Shown here: positions 24,755 to 59,755 of the stretch, piece after piece | How positions within the stretch are numbered: the stretch's first letter is position 1 | Layout of the letters: each line of letters starts with the position of its first letter | Source: Bombilactobacillus mellifer | GTDB lineage: Bacteria > Bacillota > Bacilli > Lactobacillales > Lactobacillaceae | Direction of reading: 5' to 3' | NCBI RefSeq assembly: GCF_000970795.1 | Contig: NZ_KQ034028.1 | Coordinates: 1 to 64,000, forward strand | Length of the DNA: 64,000 nucleotides | Notes under the pieces: model-generated | What the model saw: the letters and a program-made list of their open reading frames with translations, nothing else | Told to the model about the DNA's origin: nothing | Databases searched by the model: none | Program-made: the position numbers and the translations under genes

Positions 24755-25346
24755 TCCAGATGCCAATATTTTACGTAGTGACCGGAATTGTTAGTGTTCT
24801 TCCTTGGATAGCACTAAATAAATCAGCGGACATTGATAGTTAATATTGACGTGATTTACACAACGTGGTTTACTAAAAGATAATTAAGGACGTTAAACAA
24901 AGGAGCCTTGCGTAGAAGTTAGTTATATTTGATTCAAAAAAACTGCGTTTGGAGCGGCATGGGTAAGCCAATGAACATTAAACAATAGAATTATTAACAA
25001 ATATCGCTTGGTGAAAGCGGCTGGTGGTGCTTTTATTTTCTTCAGTTGCATTCTAAGTTCTTAGTACAAAATTTTTTATTTATGATTCCTAATATATGTT
25101 TAGTACCAGAACCTAGGATTAGCTAATCTAGTGAACTTAATAATGGTGATTTGAATAAGTCAAAAACTGTCTGCCAAGTTGAAACGTATTGCAATCGACT
25201 ATTTGGAAGCTGTCAGAAATATGCCCGGGACAATACTTTGTTCTAACACCTTAATTGCATTATATCCGGCCTCCAGGCTAGTTTATGTTTTTGGTCGGGC
25301 TGCTCTGTCTGGTGCTGAAACCCAAATTACAAGGAGGATAATCAAG
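24755..25346. other. 592-base gene-poor spacer before the liaF-like gene
   Basis: No gene is assigned here. An open frame from 25179 joins the liaF-like frame, but it has no ribosome binding site, and its first 56 codons do not look like a LiaF N-terminus. There are scattered weak hairpins (for example TTAGTG/CACTAA at about 24787-24815) and no convincing terminator after the gtrA-like gene. It may hold the promoter of the downstream gene, which I could not place. Confidence 0.4.
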
Positions 25347-26084
25347 ATGAGACGCACTTGTGCCAACCTATGGGGGTTGTTTTTTATTGGCGCCGCAATT
25401 TTACTAATTGTAAGTCAATTTACTCCCCTTAAATTTGATGGCGGCCAATTCTTTGGAACAGTTTTATTAGCGGTGATCTTTATTTGGAGTATCGTGAATT
25501 TATCTATTGCGGGGACGGTTTATTCGTTAGCTTTTTTAATTATTATTAATGCTGCCACTTTGAAAATTGGCTTCATTTCGCCTTGGGTGATACTAAGTAT
25601 CGCGCTCCTTTTACAAATTGGCTTAACGATTCTTTTAGCTCCTTGGCGTTGGCAATGGCCTATGTGGCGTCACCGTCATGGCCGTCGTCAAACTACGGGT
25701 TTAGGAGCAGAATCCCGAGGTACAACTGCGAGTTCTTTCATGCACGATTCAGGAATAGTCGATATTAAGGCGCATTTGATGAATTGTGTTCGCTATTTAA
25801 AAAATGTCGATTTACGCCGAGTAAAAGTCAGCGCCTTTATGTCCGGCGTCAAATTATACTTGGAGAATACCGAATTAGAAAATGATGTAGTCATTGATAT
25901 TAATTCTGAGATGAGTAACATTGAACTTTATGTTCCTACGGGCTATCCCATAGTTAATCAATTGGGATTCGTGGGTGGCAATCTTAATTTACCCCGCGAA
26001 GAACCCGTCACTTATACTGATGGTGTGCAAATTATTTTGCAAGGTAATGTCAACTTGGGGAATATCAATTGTCATTATGTTTAA
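25347..26084 (+). CDS. LiaF-like cell-envelope stress protein
   Basis: LiaF-type proteins inhibit LiaS in the LiaFSR cell-envelope stress pathway. The 245-residue product has four membrane helices in residues about 8-110 (LWGLFFIGAAILLIV first). A polar linker (about 112-140) leads to a C-terminal beta-rich LiaF/DUF2154-type domain, with DLRRVKVSAFMSGVKLYL, MSNIELYVP and GNVNLGNINCHYV. AAGGAGG at 25331-25337 decides the ATG at 25347; the frame stays open upstream to 25179. No LiaS or LiaR gene is adjacent, so the kinase partner is either elsewhere or absent. Confidence 0.85.
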   Translation: MRRTCANLWGLFFIGAAILLIVSQFTPLKFDGGQFFGTVLLAVIFIWSIVNLSIAGTVYSLAFLIIINAATLKIGFISPWVILSIALLLQIGLTILLAPWRWQWPMWRHRHGRRQTTGLGAESRGTTASSFMHDSGIVDIKAHLMNCVRYLKNVDLRRVKVSAFMSGVKLYLENTELENDVVIDINSEMSNIELYVPTGYPIVNQLGFVGGNLNLPREEPVTYTDGVQIILQGNVNLGNINCHYV

Positions 26085-26148
26085 ATAAATGATATAGAAC
26101 TTATTGATAATTTTTTTCTTGGAGAATCATTAAAATTTACTAAAATGC

Positions 26149-26176
26149 TTGTATTTTTTCTTAAAACGTCTAAAAT
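26149..26176 (+). promoter_or_regulatory. Promoter of putative small RNA
   Basis: TTGTAT (26149-26154) and TAAAAT (26171-26176) are spaced by 16 bases. Transcription would begin near 26183, just before a structured 150-base region that has its own terminator. Confidence 0.6.
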
Positions 26177-26182
26177 AGCAAA

Positions 26183-26335
26183 CAAGTATTGAGGCCAACT
26201 TCACCTCCGTACTGAGTTGAGAGGACTTTATCAATGGACCACTCCTCTATCTGATGAAGAATGATAGATTGCCTATTTATCGTTGAACCTCTCATGTGAA
26301 ATCCATCCCGTTCTTGGACGAGGGTGGATTTTTTT
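26183..26335 (+). ncRNA. Structured small RNA candidate, family not recognised
   Basis: A self-contained transcription unit of about 150 bases has a promoter, folded body and intrinsic terminator but no convincing reading frame. CAACT (26196-26200) pairs with AGTTG (26215-26219) as a 5' hairpin. TGAGAGG (26218-26224) pairs perfectly with CCTCTCA (26288-26294) to close a multibranch region, and alternative local stems AGAGGA/TCCTCT and CTATC/GATAG lie inside it. The terminator stem AAATCCATCC / GGGTGGATTT (26299-26331) is followed by seven T. It lies about 180 bases before the pyr operon promoter. It could be a trans-acting sRNA or a riboswitch with a short terminated transcript. I could not match it to T-box, SAM, preQ1, 6S or SRP RNA by eye. 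Confidence 0.5.
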
Positions 26336-26510
26336 GTGCTGCATTAATTGGGATGACGACAGTTGGACGCCAGCAGTACAATTCGTAAAAGTATTAGCAA
26401 AAAACTATCAATTGAATAAGAAAAGAGAGAAGTTATAATGTCTATCCTCTGTCACTTCTTGCGATTTTTAACGCATATCGTTTAAAAAAAGCAAAATATT
26501 TAATCTTGAT

Positions 26511-26539
26511 TTGACAAACAAGCTCACTTCCAGTAGAAT
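26511..26539 (+). promoter_or_regulatory. pyr operon promoter
   Basis: A perfect TTGACA (26511-26516) and TAGAAT (26534-26539) are spaced by 17 bases. This is one of the best sigma-A promoters in the window and drives the pyr leader and operon. Confidence 0.85.
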
Positions 26540-26681
26540 GACCATAATTTAAATATTTGAAAGCTAAACCAATTAATTGTTTTCCGTGAGAAACAAATCG
26601 GTTTGCGAGTCTAGTGGAAATGAACTTATAACATCTAGGTTCTTGCGAACAAGTTGGCAAGATCGCTAGATGTTTTTTTGT
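26540..26681 (+). promoter_or_regulatory. pyr operon attenuator leader (PyrR-type candidate)
   Basis: The leader ends in a strong intrinsic terminator before pyrB. AACATCTAG (26630-26638) pairs with CTAGATGTT (26666-26674), the nested TCTTGC pairs with GCAAGA, and T residues follow. Upstream, TTTCC (26581-26585) pairs with GGAAA (26616-26620) around GTGAG, an AAAC/GTTT stem and TTTGCGAG. This resembles the TCC...GTGAG...TTGCAAG pattern of PyrR-binding anti-antiterminators. That would make UMP-bound PyrR stop transcription. The PyrR match is by eye and pyrR is not in this operon; the terminator itself is clear. Confidence 0.65.
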
Positions 26682-46663: not shown

Positions 46664-46672
46664 AGTTATACA

Positions 46673-46753
46673 AACACGTACACGTCCCTCCGCAAGTCTT
46701 AACTTAACAGGTTCAAAGGGTCTTTCTCAGCCGTAAGGCACCCCTCGTGTATT
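46673..46753 (-). promoter_or_regulatory. TPP riboswitch (THI box)
   Basis: On the minus strand the conserved THI-box parts appear in order: GGGGTGCC, then GGCTGAGA, then ACCC and TGAACCTG, closed by a P1 stem (ACACGA / CGTGT). Together with the terminator at 46630-46663 it would stop thiMDE transcription when thiamine pyrophosphate is bound. Confidence 0.95.
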
Positions 46754-46763
46754 ACTTACCTTT

Positions 46764-59470: not shown

Positions 59471-59503
59471 GCGACTAATTGAAAGAAAGTTAGTTGCTTT
59501 TTT
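59471..59503 (+). terminator. Terminator after the GntP gene
   Basis: GCGACTAA pairs with TTAGTTGC (one G-U pair), followed by six T. Confidence 0.82.
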
Positions 59504-59542
59504 GCAGTTTAATACTTATGCCCCAAACTAACAGCAGTGTAA

Positions 59543-59588
59543 AGCAGATCAAAAACTCAATCTGGAACCAACGAGTTTTTGATCTGCT
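59543..59588. repeat. Perfect 16-bp inverted repeat between convergent operons
   Basis: AGCAGATCAAAAACTC (59543-59558) and its exact complement GAGTTTTTGATCTGCT (59573-59588) surround a 14-base loop. No T run follows on either side, so it is not a classical terminator. It could be an RNA-stabilising hairpin, a Rho-independent end for the minus-strand operon, or a relic of a small mobile element. The flanking 59589-59755 shows nothing else. Confidence 0.6.
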
Positions 59589-59755
59589 CTTTGATCAAAC
59601 GAAAGTTTGACTTGAATATCACTGATTCTTCATACATAAGCTGGTTGCCAAAATAGCGCACATGTTGTGATGCAAAGAGTCAGCGCGCCATTAGTAATGA
59701 CTGAAAAAAGTTTTCACCGGACTCCAAATAGCTGTGATCTAAAAATTTTAAAAAC

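Follow-up and report, generated by a model that had tools for sequence, protein, structure and literature searches.

The spacer and its fold

Within the 64-kb stretch of DNA analysed here (the window), a liaF-like gene (25344–26084, plus strand; LiaF-TM at E 7e-4 and LiaF-like_C at E 2e-3, neither reaching its curated cut-off) is separated from pyrB, which starts at about 26706, by a spacer that carries on its plus strand a folded body (26180–26296) followed by an intrinsic terminator. An earlier note on this DNA placed a structured RNA "between a liaF-like gene and the pyr operon" and saw no gene there. Both statements agree with our results: the spacer runs from 26084 to about 26706, and the small open reading frames that overlap the element have no protein-family (Pfam) match. 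On the other side of the liaF-like gene, about 590 bases (24755–25343) without a clear gene separate it from a gtrA-like gene. B. apium carries a LytTR-type regulator gene at this place, its protein finds no match here, and gene loss or decay is possible on this comparison.

The body begins with a weak 5' hairpin (26185–26213, plus strand; -8.9 kcal/mol alone), present in the MFE/centroid fold; its loop CCAACUUCA (26195–26203) is adjoined by ACCUCC, which resembles the anti-Shine-Dalgarno sequence. It is followed on the same strand by a three-way-junction domain (26218–26294; -25.7 kcal/mol and z -4.6 alone), found in both the MFE and the centroid folds, with a junction nearly free of unpaired bases. 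The perfect 7-bp closing stem described earlier is indeed there: TGAGAGG (26218–26224) and CCTCTCA (26288–26294) are exact complements and pair fully in the centroid fold, while the MFE fold lacks the outermost pair. Inside it, the MFE/centroid fold has two further plus-strand hairpins, one (26226–26259) of 13 bp with one bulge and the loop CCACUCC (26239–26245), the other (26260–26284) of 10 bp with the loop UGCCU (26270–26274). The C-rich loops of the element are unpaired with a probability near 1. The terminator (26298–26335, plus strand) was found by the terminator scan and has a folding energy of -18.2 kcal/mol; the seven T of the earlier description are in place (26329–26335), and the stem is of 15 bp with one bulge (26298–26312/26317–26332).

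Without the terminator, the body folds at -35.7 kcal/mol versus -20.5 +/- 2.9 for dinucleotide shuffles (z = -5.3), and none of the 200 shuffles was as stable; with the terminator, z = -5.25. The complementary strand of the body reaches z = -2.8 only. Taken whole, 26085–26300 shows no unusual structure (z -1.8), and most of the signal lies from about 26180 onwards. The stretch 26180–26336 is a compactly folded, terminator-ended RNA-like sequence, and the structured element is real at the level of sequence. Its fold is significant but not unique, since several other intergenic gaps of the window reach z <= -4.6 in 120-nt windows; fold strength alone is therefore unexceptional. The strongest signal of that intergenic scan lies at 59499–59659 (z -6.9 on the minus strand, -5.8 on the plus strand) and is probably a bidirectional terminator.

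Relatives and known RNA classes

No Rfam family matches the element at the gathering threshold, and up to E 10 there are only chance matches far below that threshold. The Rfam check proposed in the earlier note was thus carried out and returned no known family; together with a fold well beyond shuffles, this bears out the description of a structured RNA of no known class. The window's only Rfam match at the gathering threshold is a TPP riboswitch (46668–46755, minus strand) ahead of thiamine genes. Two classes were suggested by local motifs. CUGAUGA (26251–26257) and a GAA ahead of the closing stem recall the hammerhead ribozyme; we rejected it, as CUGAUGA is mostly base-paired, the junction has no NUH cleavage site and no Rfam hammerhead model matches. 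The T-box was rejected as well: after AGGGTGG in the terminator comes a T run instead of the remainder of a T-box, and there is no Rfam match.

A second copy of the element was sought with BLAST and a one-sequence covariance model in its own genome, six congeners and about 190 other Lactobacillaceae (201 genomes of the family searched), and none was found; such a model is weak and could overlook a homologue that has diverged strongly. Nor was a copy found near pyrB in 80 named lactobacilli, where the best match, in Fructilactobacillus (E = 0.33), is taken as chance. Phage and plasmid collections gave nothing relevant, and where four viral stretches share an exact 19-mer with the element, the match ends within 20 bases. 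The host is a divergent member of Bombilactobacillus, its PyrB being 65–71% identical to those of congeners, and the gene order around liaF and pyrB varies among the congeners examined. As a separate observation, no PyrB orthologue was found in genus genome G003 and G004 has only a 30% carbamoyltransferase match, which suggests that pyrimidine synthesis may have been lost in both.

Another reading takes the element as a chance or neutral fold, an unselected AT-rich spacer that remained when the surroundings of the pyr operon were rearranged and that adjoins a real terminator. Such an origin accords with an element known from one genome only, with the differing liaF/pyrB gene order in congeners and with the strong z-scores of other gaps in the window. 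The z of -5.3 reached without the terminator, unequalled in 200 shuffles, and the strand asymmetry speak against it, and we consider it unlikely.

Pyr leader, 6S RNA and switch

The proximity of pyrB raises the question of pyr control. The pyr promoter and a PyrR-type attenuator (26511–26680, plus strand) are separate from the element and conserved with four congeners that lack it: in these, pyrB is likewise preceded by that promoter (TTGACA...) and by a PyrR-type leader containing the UCCCGUGAGG motif and a terminator, located directly 3' of unrelated upstream genes. Since congeners keep the equivalent of 26511–26680 without the element, the element is no part of pyr control, and its assignment as the PyrR-binding leader of the operon is rejected. 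The leader with its PyrR-type motif is conserved in five Bombilactobacillus genomes, in none of which does it give an Rfam match at the gathering threshold.

The element was also considered as a relocated 6S RNA, because 6S RNA (RF00013) has no match in any of the seven genus genomes. Among 40 relatives searched, 16 passed the RF00013 cut-off and more match below it. In lactic acid bacteria the standard 6S site lies between rarA and uspA, and a terminator usually follows the RNA (PMC8414754). In the seven genus genomes the rarA-uspA interval has no room for 6S, a small membrane open reading frame following directly after rarA; in the element's own genome rarA (C3:1048581–1049828) is not near the element. 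With 20 6S sequences from lactic acid bacteria and related organisms as its basis, a covariance model found no credible match in the seven genomes either; a B. bombi match lies inside a transporter-like coding frame. On these searches, Bombilactobacillus may have lost 6S RNA throughout the genus, or its 6S RNA may have diverged to an extreme degree.

The undetected RNA and the empty usual site would suit a relocation, and the element shares with 6S a similar length and the terminator that usually follows in lactic acid bacteria (PMC8414754). However, its architecture is a three-way junction in the MFE and centroid folds, without the rod shape and large central bubble; the lactic-acid-bacterial model gives 3.6 bits at best across it, RF00013 does not match, the locus is wrong and congeners do not share it. 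We therefore reject the element as 6S RNA; that it is the genus's own 6S moved elsewhere is scarcely credible. Nearly as improbable, in our opinion, is a regulatory RNA of a new structural class, with its compact three-way junction beside a terminator, so far in one Bombilactobacillus lineage, that would possibly replace a function lost with 6S RNA.

The earlier note also proposed that competing pairings would allow a switch. AGAGGA (26220–26225) and TCCTCT (26243–26248) are present as sequence, but when they are forced to pair the energy is -43.1 instead of -53.9 kcal/mol (10.8 worse), and the pairing is absent among suboptimal structures within 4 kcal/mol. At a cost of about 11 kcal/mol a spontaneous switch is unlikely. 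The same result weighs against a cis-regulatory leader (riboswitch or attenuator) left as a relic or orphan by the loss of its downstream gene. An aptamer-like junction followed by a terminator is what such a leader would look like, and a small open frame (26283–26438) runs on past the terminator; yet this frame has no convincing relatives, no Rfam riboswitch matches and no low-energy alternative pairing was found, so that we regard the idea as improbable. Directly downstream there is no co-directional gene to be regulated, the next gene, pyrB, having its own conserved promoter and leader. A degraded gene at 26334–26438 was rejected, as convincing relatives were not found. So was a leader peptide from the ATG at 26234 (MDHSSI) with the Shine-Dalgarno-like AGAGGA upstream, such pairs having a frequency of about 0.1 per 157 nt across the window.

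Possible origin and role of the putative RNA

The near-consensus promoter attributed to the element could not be upheld. The weak candidate on the plus strand (26149–26176, TTGTAT-16-TAAAAT) was not picked up by the promoter scan; its match is 8/12, a level equalled or exceeded in 98.6% of the shuffled versions of 26085–26183, so that a promoter of its own is unsupported. The terminator scan gave no terminator-like site on the plus strand between 26084 and 26298; it is therefore plausible that liaF transcription runs on into the element, and a 3' untranslated region, or an RNA derived from it, is a serious reading. In B. apium a terminator directly follows the liaF-like gene, so one is expected downstream of the liaF-like gene here.

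The element may be no more than the 3' untranslated end of the liaF-like mRNA, long, structured and closed by a terminator; it would guard the transcript end and stop transcription ahead of the pyr operon, and would have no role in trans. The terminator-free interval, the lack of a promoter better than chance and the B. apium arrangement are consistent with this. Against it speaks the concentration of the folding signal from about 26180 (26085–26300 as a whole reaching only z -1.8), a feature not required of a mere tail. We hold this reading to be quite possible, if somewhat less probable than the one that we prefer.

Our tentative preference, at somewhat below an even chance, is a small RNA specific to this lineage and about 150 nt long, either free-standing or processed from the liaF-like mRNA at its 3' end. 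We infer its transcription, stability and mode of action by pairing from the sequence. The RNA would end at the intrinsic terminator near 26335, and its source would be either the weak promoter beside it or a processed liaF-like mRNA; the compact three-way junction and the terminator would make it stable. In favour of this reading are the strand asymmetry of the fold, the strong terminator, the open reading frames free of protein-family matches, the exposed C-rich loops and the separateness from the pyr leader. Against it stand the promoter at chance level, the negative homologue searches, the loop-pairing energies given below and the comparably strong folds in other gaps of the window. Like 3'-UTR-derived sRNAs, it directly follows a same-strand gene, whose terminator it may share; unlike in those, co-transcription and processing are putative here.

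It is common for C-rich loops in Firmicute sRNAs to pair with ribosome-binding sites; S. aureus RsaE and Listeria LhrC are trans-acting examples with C-rich seed motifs. The element resembles them in size range, in its intrinsic terminator and in C-rich loops able to face Shine-Dalgarno sequences. It differs in matching no Rfam sRNA family; its targets and transcription are putative, and the seed motif is a mere resemblance. Its most exposed segments are the C-rich loops CCAACUUCA(CCUCC) and CCACUCC, whose predicted partners are G-rich ribosome-binding regions in mRNAs. For duplexes with 48 start regions of the window, the loops do not clearly surpass shuffled loops in energy: fractions of 0.20, 0.085 and 0.115 of the latter do as well. 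A possible antisense target was rejected; the 18/19 complement falls within the coding sequence of an SbcC/YhaN-like protein (C3:561109) and has E = 0.17.

For the element at 26180–26336 the probable reading is an ordinary small RNA or mRNA tail peculiar to its species; neither a new class nor a switch is demonstrated. The literature searched turned up no studies of non-coding RNA in Bombilactobacillus. If transcribed, the element would be one more orphan small RNA, for a bee-associated (bee-gut) genus. By itself it changes little; the apparent absence of 6S RNA from the genus may matter more, if confirmed.
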